From Halorientalis sp. LT38 (lineage in GTDB: Archaea > Halobacteriota > Halobacteria > Halobacteriales > Haloarculaceae), in the NCBI RefSeq assembly GCF_037031225.1, contig NZ_JAYEZN010000001.1, forward strand, positions 62,001 through 126,000: DNA of 64,000 nucleotides. The letters run 5' to 3'. Both the position numbers and the translations under genes were made by a program. This document shows positions 30,182 through 40,662 of the stretch, piece by piece (position 1 is the stretch's first letter; every line of letters starts with the position of its first letter). The notes beneath the pieces are model-generated. The model was given only the letters and a program-made list of their open reading frames with translations, ran no database searches and was not told where the DNA came from.

Positions 30182-31975
30182 ATGGTATCCCGCAGTCGCG
30201 CCCTGTACCGACGCGTCCGCGGTACGGTCGCGGACGACCTCCGGGCCGACCCGTACCTCCCCTACGTCCTCCTGCTAGCTGTGGTACTCTGTAGCTTCTG
30301 GTTCTGGCACCGCATCCCCAACTTCGCGACCAGAGACGAGAAGAGCCGCCTGTTCGACGCGATGGTCCCCATCGGGCGCGTGCTGGCCGAACCCAGTATC
30401 GAGAGCCTCCAGAACGGCGTCGAGTGGAGCCGCGTCCCCTTCGGCGCGACGCTCTACCTGAACGCGCTTGCCCTCCTCCCCGTCGTGATCGTCGCCGCGC
30501 TCGTGGGCGACCTCTCGGCGTTCACGGACCTGGGCTATCCCAGCTACGAGTTCGGGTTCTACCCGGCGTGGGCGGCCACGCCCGAGTGGATCTGGACCTG
30601 GAGTCTGGCGTTCGTCCGCCTGTTCAACGTCGCGTTCGCCATCGGCGCGGTCTATCTGACCTACCGGATCGGAACGGCCGCCCGGGACCGGGCGACGGGT
30701 CGGCTGGCGGCCCTCCTCCTGACGCTTACCTTCGGCTTCCTGACTATCGCCCACGAGGGCGGCGAGGACATGCCCGCGCTCTTTTTCACACTGCTCGCGC
30801 TGTATCTGGTCCTGCGGTACGTCCAGACCGGCGACGGGACCGCCTTTCTGGCCGGGAGCGCGGCCGGCGGCGTCGCCATCGCGTTCAAACTCACGGCGGC
30901 GCCGGTCGTTCTCCTGATCGGGCTGGCCTACCTCCTCCGGGCGCACAGCGCGGATGCGGATCCGGTCGACGTCCTCCTCCAGCCGAAACTCCTGCTCGGC
31001 GGCGCGGTGTTCGGACTGGTCGCCATCCTGCTGGGCTTCCCGACTTTCCTCGTCGGCGGCGTCGATCTGTTCGTCGCCCGCGTCTTCGAAGGGTCGGCCG
31101 GGCGGATGAACCACCCGACGGGCCCCGACGCGCCGATCTGGTGGTGGTTCCTCCGCGGGTACTTCAGCGCGCTCTCACTGCCGCTTTTCGCCGCGGCCCT
31201 CGTCGGCGTCGTCGCGAGTCTCGAATCGGTGCGAGACCGGGCCACCAGCACCCACGCGGTCGCGCTCGCGTTCGCCGCGCTCACGACGTATCTCCTGCTT
31301 TTCTCCCGGTGGCACGACTTCCGGGTTCACCACCTCCTGCCGACCTTCCCGTTCATCGCCGTGTTGCTCGCCGTCTCGCTGGTCCGGTTCCGGGAGCGAA
31401 ACCCGAAGATCGCCGCACCCGTGATCGCGCTCTTGCTCGTGACGACTGGCATCTACGCTGGCTACGGGACCGTCGGGTTCGCCTCGATGCCCCGCGACCA
31501 GGCCGAGGCGTGGCTGGAGGACGATGCCGACGAAAACGCGACCCTCGAAGTGTATCGTCGGGACTTCCAGGACGCCGCGATTCCCCACGGCATGCGCGTC
31601 AACCACCTCTTCGGGGAGGAAGACGAGGCCGAGGCGGCGGCGGTCGATCCCTGCCCAGAGTACATCCAGCTCGGCTACCGCGACCTGCTCTACCTGAAAG
31701 ACGACACGTACTTCCGCAACGGCGAGGCCCAGAAGCGGTACATCCGGGAGTTGCTCTCCGGCGAGTACAACTACCGGATCGCCGCCGAGTTCGGGCCTCG
31801 GCCGCCGAACTTCGTCCCCGACCGGCCGACGCCCGGGTCGCTCACGGAGCTGTTCCGGCTGGGGCTGGTCCCGCAGACCGACCAGTTCGCCGACGAGCAG
31901 GAACTCGCCGCCAACCAGTACACGGTGATCCTCCGCCAGACCGGTGGCTGTGGCTACCGCATCGCGCCGTTCTGA
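30182..31975 (+). CDS. GT39/ArnT-like membrane glycosyltransferase
   Basis: A 597-residue protein with about eleven membrane helices and a soluble C-terminal domain from residue 430. The first loop has NFATRDEKSRLFDAMVPIG with acidic residues after helix 1, followed by AHEGGEDMPALFF, as in GT39/GT83 enzymes that use polyprenyl-phosphate sugars on the outer face. A TTTTTAC box lies about 30 bp upstream. It sits near a GT2-deacetylase-flippase-like operon, so it may use the product of that operon. The acceptor is unknown. Confidence 0.78.
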   Translation: MVSRSRALYRRVRGTVADDLRADPYLPYVLLLAVVLCSFWFWHRIPNFATRDEKSRLFDAMVPIGRVLAEPSIESLQNGVEWSRVPFGATLYLNALALLPVVIVAALVGDLSAFTDLGYPSYEFGFYPAWAATPEWIWTWSLAFVRLFNVAFAIGAVYLTYRIGTAARDRATGRLAALLLTLTFGFLTIAHEGGEDMPALFFTLLALYLVLRYVQTGDGTAFLAGSAAGGVAIAFKLTAAPVVLLIGLAYLLRAHSADADPVDVLLQPKLLLGGAVFGLVAILLGFPTFLVGGVDLFVARVFEGSAGRMNHPTGPDAPIWWWFLRGYFSALSLPLFAAALVGVVASLESVRDRATSTHAVALAFAALTTYLLLFSRWHDFRVHHLLPTFPFIAVLLAVSLVRFRERNPKIAAPVIALLLVTTGIYAGYGTVGFASMPRDQAEAWLEDDADENATLEVYRRDFQDAAIPHGMRVNHLFGEEDEAEAAAVDPCPEYIQLGYRDLLYLKDDTYFRNGEAQKRYIRELLSGEYNYRIAAEFGPRPPNFVPDRPTPGSLTELFRLGLVPQTDQFADEQELAANQYTVILRQTGGCGYRIAPF

Positions 31976-32060
31976 CGCCGTCGTGATGCACCCGGCCGAC
32001 CCGGCGTCCCGTGACCGTGTTTATGGGCGTCCTCGGCGTACACTCTCGCACTGTTCCTGA

Positions 32061-32906
32061 ATGTCCACGGACGCAGAACCCAGCGGCGCGACGCTCTCGT
32101 ACCGCCACATCCTCGAACGGGAGATGGAGAACGCCCTGCAGGAGGTCGGGCGGCCGAGGACGGGGCTGTTCCTCTCGGGGCTGTCAGCGGGGCTGAACCT
32201 GAGCTTCGGCGCGCTGTTCATGGCGATGGCGCTCACCTTCAGCGGGGGATTCGCGTCCGATCTCGTCCAGCAGGCCGTGCTGGCCGCCGTCTCCGCGATC
32301 GCCTTCCTCTTCGTCGTCATCGGCCAGACCGAACTGTTCACCGCCCAGGCCACGATGGCGATCCTGCCGGTTCTGGACGGCCGCATCGGACTCCGGGCAC
32401 TGGGGCGGCTCTGGGGGATCATCTACGTCGCCAACCTGCTCGGCTGTGCGGGCTTTTCGCTGCTGATCGCGACGGTCGGCCCGCCGATGGGCATCGTCGA
32501 CCCTGGTGCTGCCGGGACGCTGGCCGACGCGCTGACCGGACTCCGGTGGTGGGTCGTCCTGGCCAGCGCCGTCGTGGCCGGGTGGCTGATGGGGCTTGCG
32601 ACCTGGCTGGCCGCGGCCAGCCGCGACACCGTCGGCCGGGTCCTGATCGTGCTGCTCGTGACCGCGACGATCGGGTTCGGCCCGTTCCACCACGTCATCC
32701 TCGGGACGACGGAGTTGCTGACGGCCATGCTGCTCGGACAGGGCGTGAGTCCCGCCACCTTCGGCGCGTTCCTCGCGCTCGCGACCGTCGGCAACACCAT
32801 CGGCGGCTCGGTCTTCGTCGGCCTGCTCAACTACGGCCACGTCGCACTCGCCGGCGACGAGGCCGACGTCGACTTCGAGGCCGAGACCGGCTCAGAGGAG
32901 GAGTGA
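32061..32906 (+). CDS. FocA/NirC-type formate/nitrite transporter family protein
   Basis: A 281-residue protein with six membrane helices, characteristic of the pentameric formate-nitrite transporter family. Typical marks are FLSGLSAGLNLSFGALFMA in the first helix and GQTELFTAQATMAILPVL, the omega-loop region. It probably conducts small monovalent anions. It converges with the flippase-like gene (7 bp apart) and seems unrelated to the glycan genes around it. Confidence 0.82.
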   Translation: MSTDAEPSGATLSYRHILEREMENALQEVGRPRTGLFLSGLSAGLNLSFGALFMAMALTFSGGFASDLVQQAVLAAVSAIAFLFVVIGQTELFTAQATMAILPVLDGRIGLRALGRLWGIIYVANLLGCAGFSLLIATVGPPMGIVDPGAAGTLADALTGLRWWVVLASAVVAGWLMGLATWLAAASRDTVGRVLIVLLVTATIGFGPFHHVILGTTELLTAMLLGQGVSPATFGAFLALATVGNTIGGSVFVGLLNYGHVALAGDEADVDFEAETGSEEE

Positions 32907-32913
32907 GCGTCGA

Positions 32914-33942
32914 TCAGGAGTCCGGCGCCAGCGACGACGTGTCGATCTTGAGCGACGGGTACCACCCCGCGACGGCCGGGAGGTAGGTCCCGAGGAACCG
33001 GTCGACGAAGACCACGGGGACGATAATCTCACCGGGGACGCCGAGCGCGACGAACACCGCCGTCGCCGTCGCCTCCGTGACGCCGATGCCGCCGGGCGTC
33101 AGTGGGAGCAGCGTCACGCTGTAGGCCGCGACCAGCACCACCGGCAGCAGGATCGCCGGTTCGAAGGCAGCGCCGAAGGCCCCCAGGAGGAGGACGACGC
33201 GGGCCGCGGGCGCGAGCACGAGCGCGCCGGTCCACCCGAGCGCGTACCGCAGCCAGACCCCCGGTGAGGCCGCCAGCGCGCGGAAGGCGTCCGTCGAGTC
33301 CGTCGTGAATTCGGTCAGCCCGCGGATCCGATCCGCCAGGGCCGATCCCACTCGCGGGACGAGGGCGGCGAGGCCAGCGATCCGGTCGAGGAGGACGTCC
33401 AGCAGTTCGAGGTTCGTCCCCGCGAGGAGGACGAACGCGCCGGCGGCGAGGTACAGCCCCGTCGAACCGGCGAGCAGGACGATCAGGCCGAACGGGAGCC
33501 GACCGAGCACGGCGAGCACGCCGACCGCGGCGGTGAGTCCGTACAGCACCGCGTAGATCCCGGTGTGGACGCCAGCGATCGCGGTGGCGTCGGTGTAGGC
33601 GATCCCCGTCTCGCTCCGGAGGACGAAGGGGGCCGCGACCCGGCCCGAGAGTCGCGAGGGCAGCAACTGGTTGACGAAGTTGACGATCAGGTCCGTGTTC
33701 GCGGCCTCCCTGAACCGCACCGGGCCGCGAGGATCGATCACCGCGTACCAGGTGTAAAAACGCGCGAGGAGGCCGGCGACGCTCACTGCCAGGACCGCGA
33801 GCACCGTCGTCGCGTCGAGAGTCGCGAGCAGATCTACGACGCGACCGAGATCCACCTGGGAGAGCAGCCACGCCAGCGCCGCCAGACCGAGGGCGTACTG
33901 CAGGATCGTGACCGCGATACCGCGACGTGACCGGCCGCTCAC
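32914..33942 (-). CDS. Flippase-like membrane protein (LPG-synthase TM / UPF0104 family)
   Basis: A 342-residue protein with about eight membrane helices of the lysylphosphatidylglycerol synthase transmembrane (UPF0104) family. Typical features are NTDLIVNFVNQLLPSRLSGR near residue 85 and LPLTPGGIGVTEA near 280. The family includes AglD-related proteins of haloarchaeal glycosylation and candidate lipid flippases. It overlaps the deacetylase gene by 4 bp, and is the last gene of a four-gene operon. Confidence 0.82.
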   Translation of the reverse strand: MSGRSRRGIAVTILQYALGLAALAWLLSQVDLGRVVDLLATLDATTVLAVLAVSVAGLLARFYTWYAVIDPRGPVRFREAANTDLIVNFVNQLLPSRLSGRVAAPFVLRSETGIAYTDATAIAGVHTGIYAVLYGLTAAVGVLAVLGRLPFGLIVLLAGSTGLYLAAGAFVLLAGTNLELLDVLLDRIAGLAALVPRVGSALADRIRGLTEFTTDSTDAFRALAASPGVWLRYALGWTGALVLAPAARVVLLLGAFGAAFEPAILLPVVLVAAYSVTLLPLTPGGIGVTEATATAVFVALGVPGEIIVPVVFVDRFLGTYLPAVAGWYPSLKIDTSSLAPDS

Positions 33943-34787
33943 GCGTGCTCGCCCCCGTTACCCTCGGCCAGGGCGTCCTCGACGACGGTCCGCGCCGTCG
34001 TGAACTCGAAGTCCTGAGCGAGGATCCGTTCGACCGCCCGCTGCATCCACTCGCCGGTGTGGTAGTAGACGCGGCTGGGGACCCCTTCGACCTCGGGGAG
34101 GTCGACGAACTCCCAGGGGTGGACGTAGAGGACGGGTGCGATGCCCCGACGAGCGAGTAACTTCATCCCGAGGATCGTGTAGCGCGGGCCGAAAAAGCGC
34201 AGCCACGTGCCCGTCAGCGGGAGGCGAACGCCCGGCATCACGCTGGCGGGGAGTTCCAGTAGCCTGTCGGGCGCGTCCGGATCGACGTCCGTGGCTGGGG
34301 CGGGGCGGTCGAGATCGTACTCGCCGCCGTACCAGCCCGGAATCGCACGGCTGGCGACGACGCTCGAATCGTAGCTGTAGCCCGTCTCGGCGAGCAGGTC
34401 GAAGTGATCGGCCGTGATATCGAACGCCGGTGCCCGAAAGCCCGCGACGTCGGCGCCCGTCACGTCGGCCAGGAGTTCCCGCGATCGTCCGAGTTCCTCG
34501 CGGCGTTCGCTCGCGGAGAGCTCCGAGAGCAGGCGGTGGCTGTGGGTGTGGGATCCGATCTCGAAGCCGGCATCGGCGAGGGCCTGCACCTCTTCGGGGT
34601 ACTCCTCGGCGACCGACGAGACGACGAAACAGGTTGCGCTCGCGTCGGCGTCCGCGAGGGTGCGGCGGAGGAAACGGCCGCCGTCGAGACCGAAGCCCGA
34701 CTCGTCCATCTCGCCACTCGCGGACCGGTACGCGGGCGTCTGGGAGAACAGTTCGAAATCGATCGAGAGGACGGCGCGACTACTCAT
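33939..34787 (-). CDS. Polysaccharide deacetylase (NodB-fold)
   Basis: A 282-residue NodB-type deacetylase. All five motifs are present: Asp10 in SIDFE; His80 and His84 in SHTHSH; RAP at 118-120; YDSSVV; and His223 in YVHPWE. It would remove N-acetyl or N-formyl groups from a sugar by a metal-assisted mechanism. No signal peptide is present, so it acts on the cytoplasmic face, as ArnD does on prenyl-phosphate sugars at the membrane. It overlaps both neighbours (8 bp and 4 bp). Confidence 0.87.
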   Translation of the reverse strand: MSSRAVLSIDFELFSQTPAYRSASGEMDESGFGLDGGRFLRRTLADADASATCFVVSSVAEEYPEEVQALADAGFEIGSHTHSHRLLSELSASERREELGRSRELLADVTGADVAGFRAPAFDITADHFDLLAETGYSYDSSVVASRAIPGWYGGEYDLDRPAPATDVDPDAPDRLLELPASVMPGVRLPLTGTWLRFFGPRYTILGMKLLARRGIAPVLYVHPWEFVDLPEVEGVPSRVYYHTGEWMQRAVERILAQDFEFTTARTVVEDALAEGNGGEHA

Positions 34788-35130
34788 CCAGCTCCTCGAG
34801 TTCGCTACGCAGCAGACTCACTTCCTCGTTCAGCCGCGAGAGCCGGTCGTAGAGCTTCCCGATGCGGTTGACGAGGTACGTCACCAGCACGAACAGCGTC
34901 AGGTTCGAGACGACCAGGATGGCCCGCGCCTTCCACTCCAGTCCCAGCACGGTCGCGAGCACCTCGAAGACGTTGGGGAATATCGCGACGAACATGAGGC
35001 CGGCCCCGACGATCAGGGACATGACGAAGAGGGCGAGCGCCTCGCGGCCGGACTTGACGAGGAAGTAACCGTTGGCGAGGAAGCCGATCCCGACGAGCAG
35101 CGCGAGCAGGTTGACGACTGTGAAGTCCAT
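34780..35130 (-). CDS. DUF2304 small membrane protein
   Basis: A 116-residue protein with three membrane helices and a C-terminal coiled coil (LYDRLSRLNEEVSLLRSEL). This is the DUF2304 family, which I know mainly as a neighbour of GT2 dolichyl-phosphate sugar synthases. It lies 2 bp after the GT2 gene and overlaps the deacetylase. It may anchor or regulate the synthase in the membrane, like DPM2/3 in eukaryotes. Confidence 0.8.
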   Translation of the reverse strand: MDFTVVNLLALLVGIGFLANGYFLVKSGREALALFVMSLIVGAGLMFVAIFPNVFEVLATVLGLEWKARAILVVSNLTLFVLVTYLVNRIGKLYDRLSRLNEEVSLLRSELEELDE

Positions 35131-35132
35131 CG

Positions 35133-35807
35133 TTATCGGAAGAGCAGGACCCTGAGGATCACGTCGGTCATCCGGATCGGGTAGAGGACGAAGGTGTCGA
35201 GCGAGAACTGCGACTCGCCCTCGTCTCTGGTCGGGATCTCGATGGAGATCTCTTTGATCCGGAAGTCCCGTTTGGCGGCCTCGAGGGTCTGTTCGACCGC
35301 CCAGTGTTTGTCCGATCGGTGCAGGATGGTCGCGAGCGCCGACACGCGATAGACCCGGAAGCCGCTCGTCACGTCCGTGATGTCGATGCCGCCGAGGACG
35401 TTGACCACGGTCGTGAAGAACTTGATCCCGAGTTTGCGCGTCAGCGAGTAGTCCTGGAAGCTCTCGTTGAGGTAGCGACTGGCGATCACCATGTCGCAGT
35501 CCTCGGCGGCCTCGAGCAGCGTCGGGATGTACTCGGGGTCGTGCTGCCCGTCGGCGTCGATCTGCATGACGAAGTCGTAGTCGTGGCGGATGGCGTACTG
35601 GTAGCCGGTCCTGACGGCACCGCCGACGCCCGTGTTGAACACGTGTTCGATCACCACTGCGCCGTGGTCGCGGGCGATCCGGGCGGTGCCGTCGCTCGAC
35701 CCGTCGTCCACGACGACGACCTCGTCGACGTGTTCACGGGTCCCGTCGATCACGGAGCCGATGGTGTCGGCCTCGTCGTACGCGGGGATGACGGCGACGA
35801 CGTCCAC
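35133..35807 (-). CDS. GT2 glycosyltransferase, dolichyl-phosphate sugar synthase-like
   Basis: A 224-residue cytoplasmic GT-A enzyme. It has VVAVIPAYDEADTIG, VVDDGSSDG, the metal-binding DAD in QIDADGQHDP, and TDVTSGFRVYR. It lacks C-terminal membrane helices, like DPM1. It should transfer a sugar from a nucleotide donor to dolichyl or other prenyl phosphate. GTG 35807 is preferred because a TATA-like box lies about 27 bp upstream; GTG 35825 is possible. First gene of the operon with DUF2304, the deacetylase and the flippase-like protein. Confidence 0.87.
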   Translation of the reverse strand: MDVVAVIPAYDEADTIGSVIDGTREHVDEVVVVDDGSSDGTARIARDHGAVVIEHVFNTGVGGAVRTGYQYAIRHDYDFVMQIDADGQHDPEYIPTLLEAAEDCDMVIASRYLNESFQDYSLTRKLGIKFFTTVVNVLGGIDITDVTSGFRVYRVSALATILHRSDKHWAVEQTLEAAKRDFRIKEISIEIPTRDEGESQFSLDTFVLYPIRMTDVILRVLLFR

Positions 35808-35828
35808 TGGTGGTGTTGCTCGCACCGG

Positions 35829-35838
35829 TTTACTTATT
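35829..35838 (-). promoter_or_regulatory. TATA-like box of the GT2 operon
   Basis: AATAAGTAAA on the minus strand is centred about 27 bp from GTG 35807 and thus favours that start. Confidence 0.45.
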
Positions 35839-35926
35839 CCTGTCGTTCGAGCAAGCGGTGTGGTGGACGGTCGCGCAGGTGCGACGGACGGAAAGACATA
35901 GTTGCGTCCGTATCGACGGTCGAGCC

Positions 35927-37471
35927 ATGACACGGACGTTCGTCGTCGGGCTCGACGGCGCGAGCTGGCGACTGCTCGACCCCTGGATCGAGGCCGGCGA
36001 CCTGCCGAACATCGCTGCCCTCCGCGAGGAATCGGCCTGGGCCGAGACCCGCAGCTGTCTGCCGCCCGTGACCTTCCCCAACTGGAAGTGCTACTCCTCC
36101 GGGAAGGACCCCGGCGGCTTCGGCGTCTTCTGGTTCGAGCACGTCGACCTCGAGGCGGGTACCATCGAGGTGGCCAACGGCGGCGACTTCGACACCGTCG
36201 AACTCTGGGACTACCTCAACGACGAGGGCCAGACCGCCGGCGTCGTCAACATGCCCACGATGTACCCGCCCCGGGACATCGACGACCTGATCGTCGCCGG
36301 CGGGCCGGACGCCGTCGAGGGCGAGTACCGATCGATCTCCTCGGGCTACACCTCGCCCGAGTCGCTGGCCGCGGACCTCGAAGAGCGGTTCGACTACCAA
36401 GTCCACCCCGACCCGCTGCTGTCCTCGAACCAGGAGCGCGGCGCCGAGGTCGACGCCATCCTCGACCTGCTGGAGAAGCGCTTCGAGGTCGCCCTGACCC
36501 TGTTCGAGGAGGAAGACCTCGACTACGTCCACGTCACGCTCTTCTACCTCAACGTCCTCCACCACTTCTTCTGGGACGAGGAACCCACGAAACGCGCCTG
36601 GGAACTCGTCGACGAGTGGGTCGGGAAGCTGCGAGAACTGGAGGACACCAACCTCGTCCTGATGTCAGACCACGGCGCGGCCCCGACCCAGACGGAGTTC
36701 TACGTCAACGAGTGGTTGGCCGAGAACGGCTACCAGACCCGGACTCGCACCGTCGACGACTACCTCAAGCGGATCGGGATCGACCGGGAGAACGTCCTCG
36801 GGGCGGCGAAACGCGTCGGCGCGGTCGACCTGCTCGCCTCGGTCGTCCCCGAGCGGATTCAGGAGCTGGTCCCCCAGCGCGCGGGCCTCAAACGCTCCCG
36901 GAAACTCGGAGCCGTCGTGCTCGAGGAGACCCAGGCCGTCGCCAGCGCGCAGGGCCCGATCTACCTCAACCCCGACTTCGAAACCGAGTCCCTCCGCGAG
37001 GAACTGATCGCAGACCTCGAAGCGGTCGAGGACGAGCACGGCCCGATCTTCACCGACGTCTACCGCGGCGAGGAGGTCTACGAGGGCCCCTACCTCGACG
37101 AGGCGCCGGAGATCGTCGTCGACCAGCGCCCCGGCGTCCACGTCAACGACGGGATCGGCGGCGGCGAGATCACGGCCGGACCGGACCGCTGGGCCGCGGA
37201 GAACACGCCCCAGGGCATCTTCCTCGCGAACGGCCCCGACTTCGCCGACGCCGGGGAGCTCCGGGACGTGAGCATCCTCGACATCGCGCCCACCCTGCTG
37301 GTCGCCAGTGGCTGTGACGTGCCCGAGGACATGACCGGCAAGGTACTCGAGATCTTCGACGACGACCGCGAGTGGGACGAACGCGAGCCCCTGGCGCTCG
37401 CCGACGAGGACGACAGCCGCGACGACGAGGAGGTCACGGAACGGCTCAAGCAACTGGGCTACATGGAGTGA
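35927..37471 (+). CDS. Type I phosphodiesterase/nucleotide pyrophosphatase family protein
   Basis: A 514-residue enzyme of the alkaline-phosphatase superfamily. It has FVVGLDGASWRLLDPWIEAG-type start (first metal Asp), the nucleophile region LPPVTFPNWKCYSSGK, LMSDHGAAPT and late His residues. Relatives cleave phosphodiester bonds of nucleotides, phospholipids or glycan modifications. There is no signal peptide. It is divergent from the GT2 operon and is likely part of the glycan locus, but its substrate is unknown. Confidence 0.85.
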   Translation: MTRTFVVGLDGASWRLLDPWIEAGDLPNIAALREESAWAETRSCLPPVTFPNWKCYSSGKDPGGFGVFWFEHVDLEAGTIEVANGGDFDTVELWDYLNDEGQTAGVVNMPTMYPPRDIDDLIVAGGPDAVEGEYRSISSGYTSPESLAADLEERFDYQVHPDPLLSSNQERGAEVDAILDLLEKRFEVALTLFEEEDLDYVHVTLFYLNVLHHFFWDEEPTKRAWELVDEWVGKLRELEDTNLVLMSDHGAAPTQTEFYVNEWLAENGYQTRTRTVDDYLKRIGIDRENVLGAAKRVGAVDLLASVVPERIQELVPQRAGLKRSRKLGAVVLEETQAVASAQGPIYLNPDFETESLREELIADLEAVEDEHGPIFTDVYRGEEVYEGPYLDEAPEIVVDQRPGVHVNDGIGGGEITAGPDRWAAENTPQGIFLANGPDFADAGELRDVSILDIAPTLLVASGCDVPEDMTGKVLEIFDDDREWDEREPLALADEDDSRDDEEVTERLKQLGYME

Positions 37472-37542: not shown

Positions 37543-38499
37543 ATGGACACAGCGGTCGCCCCCGAAGTGGAGGCCGTCGCCGCGGACATCGCGTCGATGG
37601 AGACGCGCGGGGCGGCGACCATCGCCCGCGCCGCAGCGGACGCACTCGCCGCCCAGGCCCGGGAGAGCGACGCCGAGACACCCTCGGAGTTCCGGGCCGA
37701 GATGACCGCGGCCGCGCGAACCCTCCACGACACGCGCCCGACCGCCGTTTCGCTCCCCAACGCCCTCCGCTACGTCTTTCAGGGGATGGACGGCACCACG
37801 GTCGAGAGCCTCCGCCAGTCGGCGGTCGATTCCGCCGAGACGTTCTGCGCGCAACTGGAACGCGCCCAGACCGACCTCGGGGAGATCGGGGCCAACCGCC
37901 TGCGCGACGGGGACACCGTCATGACCCACTGCCACTCGACGGACGCGCTGGCGTGCATCGAGGCCGCCCTCGACCAGGGGAAGGAGCTCTCGGCAATCGT
38001 CAAGGAGACCCGGCCGCGCAACCAGGGCCACATCACAGCCCAGCGATTGCGGGAACTCGACGTGCCGGTGACGCTGATCGTCGACAGCGCCGCACGGCGG
38101 TACCTCGACGAGGTCGATCACGTCCTCGTGGGCGCGGACTCGATAGCCGCCGACGGCTCGGTTATCAACAAGATCGGGACTGCAGGGCTCGCCGTCTCGG
38201 CCCGCGAGCGGGGCGTCCCGATCGTCACCGCAGCCCAGACGATCAAACTCCACCCGGACACGATGACCGGCCACACCGTCGAGATCGAGACCCGCGACGA
38301 GGCGGAGGTGATCGACGACGAGAGCCGGGCGGAGATCGGCGAGATCGAGGTGGAAAATCCGGCCTTCGACGTGACGCCGCCGCGGTACATGGACGCCATC
38401 GTCACCGAGCGCGGGCAGTTCCCGCCCGAGAGCATCGTCACGCTGATGCGCGAACTGTTCGGCGAGGCCACCGCCCGGCCGTGGGAGGAACCTGCATGA
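37543..38499 (+). CDS. Ribose-1,5-bisphosphate isomerase
   Basis: A 318-residue member of the eIF2B-related R15P isomerase family. It converts ribose 1,5-bisphosphate to ribulose 1,5-bisphosphate in archaeal nucleoside-ribose salvage. The catalytic pair is seen as Cys130 in THCHSTD and Asp199 in GADSIAADGSVINKIGT. The extra N-terminal helical region is typical. ATG 37543 starts the conserved protein. It is followed 12 bp later by a PfkB kinase gene and then by a convergent RuBisCO gene, so the local context fits well. Confidence 0.93.
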   Translation: MDTAVAPEVEAVAADIASMETRGAATIARAAADALAAQARESDAETPSEFRAEMTAAARTLHDTRPTAVSLPNALRYVFQGMDGTTVESLRQSAVDSAETFCAQLERAQTDLGEIGANRLRDGDTVMTHCHSTDALACIEAALDQGKELSAIVKETRPRNQGHITAQRLRELDVPVTLIVDSAARRYLDEVDHVLVGADSIAADGSVINKIGTAGLAVSARERGVPIVTAAQTIKLHPDTMTGHTVEIETRDEAEVIDDESRAEIGEIEVENPAFDVTPPRYMDAIVTERGQFPPESIVTLMRELFGEATARPWEEPA

Positions 38500-38511
38500 G
38501 AGGGGCATAGC

Positions 38512-39396
38512 GTGGCGCGGATCGTCTGTGCGGGCCACGTCAACTGGGACGTGACGCTCTCTGTCGACCGGTTGCCCGCGGCCGACGGCGAGGCCACCAT
38601 CGCCGACCAGGCCCAGTCCTGCGGCGGCAGCGCCTGCAACGTCGCGACGGGGGTCGCCGCGCTCGGTGACGACCCCGCGATCCTCGGGAGCGTCGGCGAC
38701 GACGAGCACGGCCACCTCGCCGAGCGCTCGCTCGACGACTCGGGCGTCGACTGCGGCCCGCTGGTGATCTCCGAGGGAGATACGGCCGTGAAGTACCTCG
38801 TCGTCGATCCGGCGGGGGAGGTCGCCGTCCTCGGCAACGAGGGGGCGAACGAGGCGTTCGCGGCCGACGACCTCGATTCGGAGACGCTCGGGGCCGCCGA
38901 TCACCTCCACCTGACGAGCCAGGACCCGGACACGGCCGCCGCGCTCGCCGATCGAGCCCACGATCAGGAGATCTCCGTGAGCTTCGACCCCGGACGGCGG
39001 ATCGACGCCCGCGACTTCGCGGCGCCGCTCGCGCGTGCCGACCTCGTGTTCGTCAACGAGCGCGAGGCCGCGACGGCCATCGAGGAGTACTTCGGCCCGG
39101 CCGACGACCTGACGAAGACCGTCGCGCTGAAACACGGCGCGGGCGGCGCGGAGGTGCTGACCCCCTGCGGACGGTACGCCAGTCACGACGGCTTCCCCGT
39201 CGAAGCCGTGGACACGACCGGCGCGGGCGACGCCTTCGCCGCCGGCTTCCTCTCCGTCTGGCTCGACGGCGGTGACGACCCGGACTACGATCGCTGTCTC
39301 GCCGTGGGGAACGCCTGCGGGGCGCTCGCGGCGGCCGAGCGCGGAGCGAAGGCCGAACTGTCCTGGGACCGAATCGAGGGTCTGCTCGCCAACTAG
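38512..39396 (+). CDS. PfkB-family kinase, probable ribose-1-phosphate kinase
   Basis: A 294-residue ribokinase-fold kinase starting with GTG. It has GHVNWDVTLSVDRLP, CGGSACNVATG, and the ATP-site DTTGAGDAFAAGF with base Asp240. Next to R15P isomerase, the best candidate reaction is ribose-1-phosphate + ATP to ribose 1,5-bisphosphate, as shown for a haloarchaeal pentose-bisphosphate pathway. Other nucleoside or sugar kinase activity cannot be excluded. It converges with the RuBisCO gene with 12 bp between stops. Confidence 0.85.
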   Translation: MARIVCAGHVNWDVTLSVDRLPAADGEATIADQAQSCGGSACNVATGVAALGDDPAILGSVGDDEHGHLAERSLDDSGVDCGPLVISEGDTAVKYLVVDPAGEVAVLGNEGANEAFAADDLDSETLGAADHLHLTSQDPDTAAALADRAHDQEISVSFDPGRRIDARDFAAPLARADLVFVNEREAATAIEEYFGPADDLTKTVALKHGAGGAEVLTPCGRYASHDGFPVEAVDTTGAGDAFAAGFLSVWLDGGDDPDYDRCLAVGNACGALAAAERGAKAELSWDRIEGLLAN

Positions 39397-39408
39397 TATT
39401 CTCCTGAC

Positions 39409-40662
39409 TCACCGCGGCGTCTCGGTCCCCCACTTCTCGACGGCCGTCGCGAGTTCCGGCACCTGCTCGGCCTTCGACTCGATGGACTCGCCGGCCGCGG
39501 CGGCGTCGACGGCCGCGCGGAGCGCCTTCGCCCCCGCGTGGGTTCCCTCGGGGTGGCCGTGGACCCCGCCGCCGGCCTGAATGCAGAGGTTCGTCCCGAG
39601 CCGATCGATCAACTCCGGGACGAGTCCGGGGTGGAGCCCGCCGGAGGCGACCGGGAGCACGTCGCGCAGGCCGTGCAGGTCGCCGTAGAGCCACTCGTTG
39701 ATGCCGGCGGTGTCCTCGTTCTCGAGTTTGCCGAGGTCGGCGGTCCCGGTGTGCAACTGATCCGCACCGCACAGGCGCGTGATCTGCGCGAGGACGCGCA
39801 TCGACACGCCGTGGTCGGGCACCCGGTCGAAGGCGGCGTGCATCGCCCGGTGGGCGTGGATCGCCAGGCCGTGCTCGTCGCAGCGCTCGCGCACCCGCTG
39901 GACCGCCGCCCAGCCGCAGGTGACGACGTCGACCATCACGTACTCGCCGCCGTGCTCCGCGACCAGATCGACCCGTTCGAGCATCCGGTGGGCGTCGGCC
40001 GTGACGTTCACGAGGTAGGACTTGCGTTCCCCCGTCTCATCCTCGGCTCGATCGCGCTGGGCCAGCGACTCGGTCAGGCGCTCCCTGAAGGGATTGAAAT
40101 CCTGATCCGTGAGGTTCTCGTCGTCCTTGAGGAGGTCGAGGCCACCAGTCCAGGCCTGGTAGCCGATCTCCGCGTGCTGGTCGGTCGAGAGCCCGACCTT
40201 CGGTTTCGGGACCGTCGCCGTGATCGGTCGGTCGCCGGCGCCGAAGACTTCCTCTCGGACGCTCGTCCCGAACTGCGGCCCGGGGAAGGAAGTCGCCAGG
40301 GGTTCGGGCCACTCGCAGTCGAGGAGGCGGATGCGTTCGACGGCTTTCATCCCCAGGATGTTCCCGGCGATGCAGGAGAGCACCTGGGGCATGTTGCCGG
40401 CCTCGAACAGGGCGTCGGGGTAGGCGACGGTGACCGTCCCGCGCTCCTCGTCGATCTCGAAGGCCGTCGCCGAGAGGTCGGTGATCGACCCCTCGACCTG
40501 GAGTTCGGCCCACGTCCCGTTCGAGCTCTCGGAGGCGACGCGGCCGGCCGCCGCCTCGAGGTCCATGTCGCTCGCCGGCTCGACGGCGAAGGTACAGACG
40601 AGTTCCGAGTCGCGAGGGTCGTGGTCGAGGTCCAGGAAGTCCTCGTAGTTGATGCCGGGCAT
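39409..40662 (-). CDS. rbcL: Type III ribulose-1,5-bisphosphate carboxylase large subunit
   Basis: A 417-residue form III RuBisCO. Active-site residues are all present: Lys153 in VPKPK, the carbamylated Lys179 with Asp181 and Glu182 in GGLDLLKDDE, His271/Arg272/His275 in HAHRAMHA, and loop-6 Lys312 in GKLEN. It is thus a true carboxylase rather than a RuBisCO-like protein. Form III enzymes use RuBP derived from nucleotides, giving two 3-phosphoglycerate. A TATA-like box lies 25-33 bp before ATG 40662, so it is probably leaderless. Confidence 0.95.
   Translation of the reverse strand: MPGINYEDFLDLDHDPRDSELVCTFAVEPASDMDLEAAAGRVASESSNGTWAELQVEGSITDLSATAFEIDEERGTVTVAYPDALFEAGNMPQVLSCIAGNILGMKAVERIRLLDCEWPEPLATSFPGPQFGTSVREEVFGAGDRPITATVPKPKVGLSTDQHAEIGYQAWTGGLDLLKDDENLTDQDFNPFRERLTESLAQRDRAEDETGERKSYLVNVTADAHRMLERVDLVAEHGGEYVMVDVVTCGWAAVQRVRERCDEHGLAIHAHRAMHAAFDRVPDHGVSMRVLAQITRLCGADQLHTGTADLGKLENEDTAGINEWLYGDLHGLRDVLPVASGGLHPGLVPELIDRLGTNLCIQAGGGVHGHPEGTHAGAKALRAAVDAAAAGESIESKAEQVPELATAVEKWGTETPR

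Follow-up and report, generated by a model that had tools for sequence, protein, structure and literature searches.

A conserved haloarchaeal gene module with a candidate pathway for a de-N-acetylated, dolichyl-phosphate-linked amino sugar

Gene content of the locus

Halorientalis sp. LT38 carries, at positions 30182 to 37471 of the window analysed here (64,000 nucleotides of contig NZ_JAYEZN010000001.1, from 62,001 to 126,000), six genes predicted to assemble and export a lipid-linked amino sugar. Four of them form a tightly packed minus-strand operon. The first gene encodes a family 2 glycosyltransferase (GT2; 35133..35807, 224 amino acids, Pfam Glycos_transf_2), a predicted dolichyl-phosphate (DolP) sugar synthase whose inferred start codon is most likely the GTG at 35807 and not 35933. 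It is followed by a small DUF2304 membrane protein (34780..35130, 116 amino acids; PF10066, 61 bits), a de-N-acetylase of the NodB/carbohydrate esterase 4 (CE4) type with a DUF3473 C-terminus (33939..34787, 282 amino acids; Polysacc_deac_1 and DUF3473), and a flippase-like UPF0104/LPG_synthase_TM membrane protein (32914..33942, 342 amino acids; LPG_synthase_TM, 1e-31). The flippase and deacetylase genes overlap by 4 bases and the deacetylase and DUF2304 genes by 8, while 2 bases separate DUF2304 from the GT2.

Two plus-strand genes flank the operon: a GT-C glycosyltransferase (30182..31975, 597 amino acids; PMT_2 2e-9, PMT 1e-5) and a soluble PF01663 phosphodiesterase of the alkaline phosphatase superfamily (35927..37471, 514 amino acids; Phosphodiest 3e-35), the latter divergent from the operon. 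The first-pass annotation of this DNA had described the same operon, with a GT39-like transferase and a phosphodiesterase beside it. Its junctions do overlap or nearly touch, and the six genes are all open frames where they had been placed. The Pfam assignments of all six proteins exceed the curated cut-offs. Hydropathy at a strict threshold gives eight membrane segments for the GT-C, seven for the flippase and three for DUF2304, and none for the deacetylase, the GT2 or the phosphodiesterase.

Conservation across haloarchaea

The genes recur together in other haloarchaea. Across 293 genomes of the haloarchaeal order, the deacetylase occurs in 56 and the flippase ortholog in the identical 56 (Fisher p ~1e-61, uncorrected for phylogeny). 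The GT-C occupies the same 56 genomes plus one with a weak match. A phosphodiesterase ortholog scoring above 900 bits, a threshold set where the scores drop abruptly from 909 to 640 bits, is present in 54 of the 56 and in none of the remaining genomes. Raw Fisher p values for module co-occurrence are all below 1e-56, with phylogeny ignored; the carriers are spread across 17 genera in 8 families. The first-pass annotation had proposed co-occurrence of the four operon genes with the GT39-like gene as a check; these genes are conserved together, with deacetylase, flippase and GT-C shared by 56 of 293 genomes. Among 97 relatives, 36 hold deacetylase orthologs of at least 52% identity, and a 37th holds a fragment at a contig end. 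G006, from the same genus as the window, lacks the deacetylase, flippase and GT-C altogether.

Physical linkage follows the same pattern. In 49 loci, drawn mostly from named species, the flippase lies within 10 kb of the deacetylase in 49, the GT2 and the GT-C in 45 each, and the phosphodiesterase in 40. Two Halomarina loci (L093, L097) carry all genes on one strand in the order GT2-DUF2304-deacetylase-flippase-phosphodiesterase-GT-C, and many haloarchaeal genera have a fusion protein with DUF2304 N-terminal to the GT2, opposite to the order of the separate genes. Haloarcula genomes keep the phosphodiesterase, although often at a distance of ~110 kb from the module. Given the shared genome sets, the one-strand Halomarina order and the DUF2304-GT2 fusion, these five to six genes are a functional module found in about one fifth of haloarchaea.

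Several loci vary in content. Six from Halorientalis genomes (L033, L034, L039, L073, L117 and L118) have phosphodiesterase, deacetylase, flippase and GT-C and no GT2 or DUF2304 at the locus; three of the six genomes hold DUF2304 elsewhere, in a long frame resembling the fused synthase. A sulfatase-family gene (PF00884) adjoins the deacetylase in 16 loci (L096, L101, L104-L113 and others), mostly those with a fused DUF2304-GT2, and is possibly a further modifier of the module sugar.

Other genes lie within or beside the module in the window. A formate/nitrite transporter gene (32061-32906, plus strand) sits between the GT-C gene and the operon; it falls within the module span in the window genome only and was rejected as a module part, as no other fetched module locus has a homolog. 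In the adjoining region 37543-40662, three kinds of gene product can be made out by eye as putative ribose-1,5-bisphosphate isomerase, PfkB-type kinase and archaeal RuBisCO, possibly an adenosine monophosphate/nucleoside degradation pathway.

The deacetylase

The deacetylase is what makes the module resemble the bacterial Arn system. Residues D10, H80, H84, R118-P120 and H223 are invariant or nearly so among 58 homologs. The protein contains no hydrophobic segment and therefore no signal peptide, which marks it as cytoplasmic. Both results agree with the earlier description of a cytoplasmic NodB deacetylase with its motifs intact.

An AlphaFold model (predicted local distance difference test score, pLDDT, 94.6) has a CE4 fold nearest to HP0310 (VIA Z 26.4) and a Mycobacterium smegmatis deacetylase (Z ~26), followed by the allantoinase PuuE and then ArnD (8t0j; Z 21.6, root-mean-square deviation 2.4 over 213 residues, 17% identity). 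The ArnD fold is shared, a likeness that is unspecific, as other CE4 enzymes score above ArnD. At the level of sequence, the ArnD model NF011923 leaves the window deacetylase unmatched at E 0.01 and matches 11 of the 58 homologs weakly (best 1e-4). The comparison with ArnD suggested in the first-pass annotation thus holds for the fold and fails for family membership. Among curated families, the XrtA-system polysaccharide deacetylase (TIGR03006) comes closest, at 111 bits against a cut-off of 276.

Bacterial relatives of the deacetylase share 24-38% identity and often lie downstream of a GT2, a pattern set aside as too unspecific to serve as module evidence; DUF2304 was not found in a Williamsia genome that encodes one such relative. 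A CE4 deacetylase-like fold also occurs in the turret protein of Haloferax tailed virus 1 (PDB 8qpg_TA, VIA Z 17.6). This structural likeness suggests that viruses of haloarchaea may act on N-acetylated sugars at the host surface.

The remaining module proteins

The best NCBIfam match of the GT2 is PpgS, a polyprenyl-phosphate-GalNAc (N-acetylgalactosamine) synthase, which matches all 20 of the 20 family members scanned. The window protein scores 94.4 bits against this model (NF058614, cut-off 370) and 56.5 bits against ArnC (NF007986, cut-off 529), with the PpgS, AglJ and DolP-hexose transferase models all ranking above ArnC. As judged from these scores, the GT2 is nearer to PpgS than to ArnC. 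By analogy with GacI/GacJ and PpgS/Rv3632, the DUF2304 protein would act as the partner of the GT2.

In the flippase, P280, P283-G285, G287 and E290 are invariant. Pfam places this candidate in LPG_synthase_TM/UPF0104, and not with the small multidrug-resistance-type flippases ArnE and ArnF. The GT-C has an invariant D52 and a near-invariant E53 in its first loop, and its AlphaFold model (pLDDT 84.6) matches AglB (VIA Z 28.6), ALG12 (28.4), Pmt4 (27.4) and ArnT (25.9); the NCBIfam scan gave no ArnT family match. It likely moves the sugar from dolichyl phosphate to a surface glycan. The folds that the deacetylase and the GT-C share with their relatives do not fix their substrates. The window genome (G000) encodes a second close GT-C paralog at C1:2830266-2832089 (882 bits), and several relatives have two or three such genes; acceptor diversity is therefore possible.

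The phosphodiesterase and the GT2 are the best-conserved proteins at the locus; the phosphodiesterase has a mean column identity of 77% over 37 species, with D10, T49, D248, H249 and H405 invariant. It is at best NPP/phosphonoacetate-hydrolase-like. Single-sequence searches of the PDB with the GT-C and the phosphodiesterase returned nothing, and a GT-C profile match to Na/K-ATPase (E 0.005) was taken as chance.

Genes pointing to the sugar

The neighbourhood of the module elsewhere gives clues to the sugar. Plant SQD1 (UDP-sulfoquinovose synthase), checked against PDB 1qrr, was used as a query for SqdB-like genes, which occur in 124 of the 293 genomes: 54 of the 56 with the module versus 70 of the 237 without it (Fisher p 1e-21). 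A triplet of an SqdB-like gene and two short-chain dehydrogenase/reductase (SDR) genes adjoins the module in Salinarchaeum, Haladaptatus, Halovenus and G181, and is found ~11 kb away in G099. This linkage spans 5 genera in 5 families. The triplet adjoins the phosphodiesterase in Haladaptatus and Salinarchaeum, starting 35 bases after it in Haladaptatus L110.

Genes for making UDP-N-acetylglucosamine (UDP-GlcNAc) join the same neighbourhood. Locus L166 reads GlmU-GlmS-SqdB-SDR-SDR-GT-C-flippase-deacetylase-DUF2304-GT2-phosphodiesterase, and the module has GlmU/GlmS as neighbours in Salinarchaeum, G099 and Halopenitus as well. In the window genome, 2 kb separate GlmU and GlmS from the SqdB-like gene, at ~1.38 Mb from the module. 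UDP-GlcNAc synthesis, sulfonation at C6, an N-acetylhexosamine (HexNAc)-type lipid synthase and a de-N-acetylase would together lead to 6-sulfo-quinovosamine (6-sulfo-QuiN). The first-pass annotation had expected the module to expose a positively charged amine; that picture is probably incomplete, since the SqdB/GlmU/GlmS neighbourhood and the published Haloarcula hispanica glycan both point to a zwitterion.

Evidence from Haloarcula hispanica

In H. hispanica, sulfonated quinovosamine on dolichyl phosphate (DolP-QuiNS) and a 6-sulfo-QuiN branch on the surface-layer (S-layer) N-glycan have been reported (PMC9943897). The same paper lists HAH_1567-1573 as a glycosyltransferase cluster and does not tie DolP-QuiNS to the module genes (PMC9943897). 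Genome G166 was taken as H. hispanica on the basis of exact matches to the published HAH_1206 and HAH_1662 primers, of which the HAH_1206 primer is also exact in G281. Counting genes back from HAH_1662 in G166 gives HAH_1567 for the GT2, 1568 for DUF2304, 1569 for the deacetylase, 1570 for the flippase and 1571 for the GT-C, followed by a second glycosyltransferase (1572) and a transporter-like gene (1573). Individual numbers are possibly off, because the count uses our own gene finding. As counted, the module (HAH_1567-1571) falls inside the published cluster. The phosphodiesterase ortholog of G166 is at C3:1386563-1388104 and its SqdB-like gene at C3:467758-468789.

A citing paper describes Agl23 as a putative hexose-P-Dol flippase and Agl22 as a glycosyltransferase; either may lie in the HAH_1567-1573 cluster. 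Agl22 may be HAH_1571, in which case it would be the GT-C. No gene assignment for H. hispanica sulfoquinovosamine was found in the literature covered, which did not include Lu 2020 (Agl22/Agl23). AepG, the DolP-glucuronic acid synthase of Haloarcula, was rejected as a match for the module GT2: it belongs to the aglB cluster at C3:1.14 Mb, and the module GT2 is found at 1.495 Mb.

Proposed pathway

The locus is probably best explained as a multi-component transmembrane glycosylation module that includes its own de-N-acetylase. Such systems combine a GT-A-fold polyprenyl-phosphate sugar synthase, alone or with a separate membrane protein, with a flippase and a GT-C that bears an acidic motif in an outer loop, and the sugar travels as a polyprenyl-phosphate monosaccharide. 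By family assignment, the GT2 and DUF2304, separate or fused, would supply the first component, and the UPF0104 protein, confined to the identical 56 genomes, is a candidate for the flippase; the modelled GT-C fold, with D52/E53, fits the third.

We favour, with reasonable though far from full confidence, a pathway in which the module makes DolP-linked 6-sulfo-N-acetylquinovosamine (DolP-6-sulfo-QuiNAc), de-N-acetylates it, flips it and transfers it, yielding a zwitterionic surface sugar. GlmS and a GlmU-like enzyme would make UDP-GlcNAc, which the UDP-sulfoquinovose-synthase-like enzyme and its two SDR partners, whose genes lie outside the locus in the window genome, would convert to 6-sulfonated UDP-N-acetylquinovosamine. 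The GT2 and its DUF2304 partner would then move 6-sulfonated N-acetylquinovosamine to dolichyl phosphate. Described GT2-DUF2304-type pairs make polyprenyl-phosphate-HexNAc, so an N-acetylated substrate is the natural reading, and it gives the deacetylase a use: the cytoplasmic NodB-fold enzyme would strip off the N-acetyl group while the sugar is on its lipid carrier. Outward flipping of DolP-6-sulfo-QuiN would fall to the UPF0104 protein, and the GT-C would attach 6-sulfo-QuiN to the S-layer N-glycan, as the 6-sulfo-QuiN-Gal branch in Haloarcula. We infer the substrates, the order of steps, the acceptor and the action of the SqdB-like enzyme on UDP-GlcNAc.

Several points weigh against this pathway. 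The phosphodiesterase is part of the module and would be required, yet the pathway assigns it no function. The only pointer to deacetylation before flipping is the missing signal peptide. The published 6-sulfo-QuiN branch has a beta linkage, but two successive inverting transfers, by the GT2 and then the GT-C, would produce an alpha one; one of the two steps would therefore have to be unusual. The SqdB-like protein scores 355-360 bits against the UDP-sulfoquinovose synthase model NF041015 (cut-off 575), most genomes, that of the window among them, show no linkage between its gene and the module, and the SQD1 query gave no match in the module genomes G316 and G131. A module-specific SqdB subtype was sought in a tree of 42 haloarchaeal sequences and not found. 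Because of this, and because 70 genomes that lack the module have an SqdB-like gene too, the enzyme may make ordinary UDP-sulfoquinovose.

Alternative explanations

In a plain Arn/Flm-like system, DolP-GlcNAc or DolP-GalNAc would be converted to DolP-glucosamine, flipped and transferred to a glycan or polymer as a cationic, unsulfonated amino sugar, and the SqdB-like genes would belong to a separate pathway that shares genomes and neighbourhoods by coincidence. We consider this unlikely, though it is the strongest of the alternatives. Known GT2-DUF2304 pairs do take plain UDP-GlcNAc or UDP-GalNAc, SqdB-like genes are present in 70 module-free genomes and form no special subtype, and Halopenitus links GlmU/GlmS to the module without SqdB. 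A separate pathway sits poorly, however, with SqdB in 54 of 56 module genomes and its linkage in five families, and the amino sugar reported on both DolP and the N-glycan of H. hispanica is the sulfonated one.

A second alternative changes the acceptor, with the sugar decorating a membrane glycolipid or an exopolysaccharide, and not an S-layer glycan, as for HexSDF of Clostridioides difficile. HexSDF shows the same pairing of a NodB-type deacetylase with an MprF/UPF0104-type flippase, and HexSF without HexD accumulates an acetylated intermediate (PMC10128005). HexS, however, is annotated as a monogalactosyldiacylglycerol synthase and not a GT2, and the GT-C that is obligatory here is absent from HexSDF and would be unneeded for a glycolipid built on the cytoplasmic face of the membrane. 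We consider such an acceptor quite improbable. We hold it equally improbable that the deacetylase acts on a nucleotide sugar or on the transferred product, with no carrier step and a parallel to ArnD in fold only: CE4/NodB enzymes do accept a range of substrates, among them polymers and allantoin, which is not a sugar, and the closest curated family is the polysaccharide deacetylase of the XrtA system, but the protein has no signal peptide or hydrophobic segment that would make it an outside enzyme, its gene always accompanies the flippase, and ArnD, with the same fold, acts on an undecaprenyl-linked sugar.

Relationship to known systems

The preferred reading, in which 6-sulfo-QuiNAc is deacetylated on its dolichyl carrier, shares features with several described systems. 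It resembles Arn (ArnC, ArnD, ArnE/F, ArnT) in the order of steps and in the deacylase and GT-C folds, and differs in that the haloarchaeal flippase belongs to another family and the sugar is probably 6-sulfo-quinovosamine, not aminoarabinose. The archaeal Arn parallel drawn in the first-pass annotation is thus partly supported: it holds for mechanism, for co-conservation and for the two folds, and not for family membership, as none of the proteins reaches an Arn model.

The PpgS-Rv3632-Rv3779 system, which adds galactosamine to mycobacterial and corynebacterial arabinogalactan, likewise combines a GT2 polyprenyl-phosphate-HexNAc synthase with a small membrane partner, a deacetylated sugar and a GT-C. 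Only the haloarchaeal module, however, would use dolichyl phosphate, has deacetylase and flippase genes of its own and shows the link to SqdB. PpgS/Rv3632 makes polyprenyl-phosphate-HexNAc, and the flipping and deacetylation steps of the mycobacterial pathway are described as unidentified (PMC9671496). Corynebacterium glutamicum holds a PF10066 protein, which we infer to be the Rv3632 homolog Cgp_0393. GacI/GacJ and WpsA/WpsB are further GT2-DUF2304 pairs that make polyprenyl-phosphate-HexNAc (PMC8327497). The streptococcal GacI/GacJ/GacK/GacL system also has a flippase and a GT-C (PMC8327497, PMC8035078), but it has no deacetylase, and its flippase GacK is of the Wzx type and not UPF0104.

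In C. difficile, the HexSDF glycosyltransferase, polysaccharide deacetylase and MprF-like flippase produce aminohexosyl-hexosyl-diradylglycerol (PMC10128005). The haloarchaeal operon likewise groups a NodB-type deacetylase, an MprF-like flippase and a glycosyltransferase and would yield an aminohexose product; HexSDF differs in its glycolipid product and glycosyltransferase family and in lacking DUF2304 and a GT-C. The Haloferax AglD/AglR/AglS branch, in which DolP-mannose donates a single sugar to the N-glycan outside the cell, is comparable in that step, and AglD itself ends in a UPF0104 domain (PMC5898192, PMC4335974), but the branch has no deacetylase and no DUF2304, and its sugar is a hexose and not an amino sugar.

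The first-pass annotation had stated that no such system was described in haloarchaea, which needs qualifying. UPF0104 genes beside a polysaccharide deacetylase and a glycosyltransferase were noted in Methanosarcina by Makarova in 2015, with a flippase function proposed (PMC5898192), and the H. hispanica cluster listing and HexSDF were also published earlier. We suggest only tentatively, at somewhat less than our confidence in the pathway itself, that DolP-6-sulfo-QuiNAc is converted to DolP-6-sulfo-QuiN on the carrier, ahead of flipping and of transfer to S-layer N-glycans, in a six-gene route in which the obligatory, soluble PF01663 phosphodiesterase would play a part unprecedented in Arn-type systems.

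Biological significance

If the pathway is correct, archaea have built an Arn-like logic, with an acylated lipid-linked sugar, deacylation inside the cell, flipping and GT-C transfer, from different protein families. The module also offers candidate families for how mycobacteria deacetylate and flip the lipid-linked sugar of their galactosamine pathway. Chemically, both the sulfoquinovosamine of the H. hispanica N-glycan and its DolP carrier are established, and if our assignment is right each gene of the pathway becomes open to testing in an archaeon with workable genetics. About one fifth of haloarchaeal genomes would then be predicted to carry 6-sulfo-quinovosamine, and a zwitterionic surface sugar of this kind would bear on salt adaptation and virus attachment.

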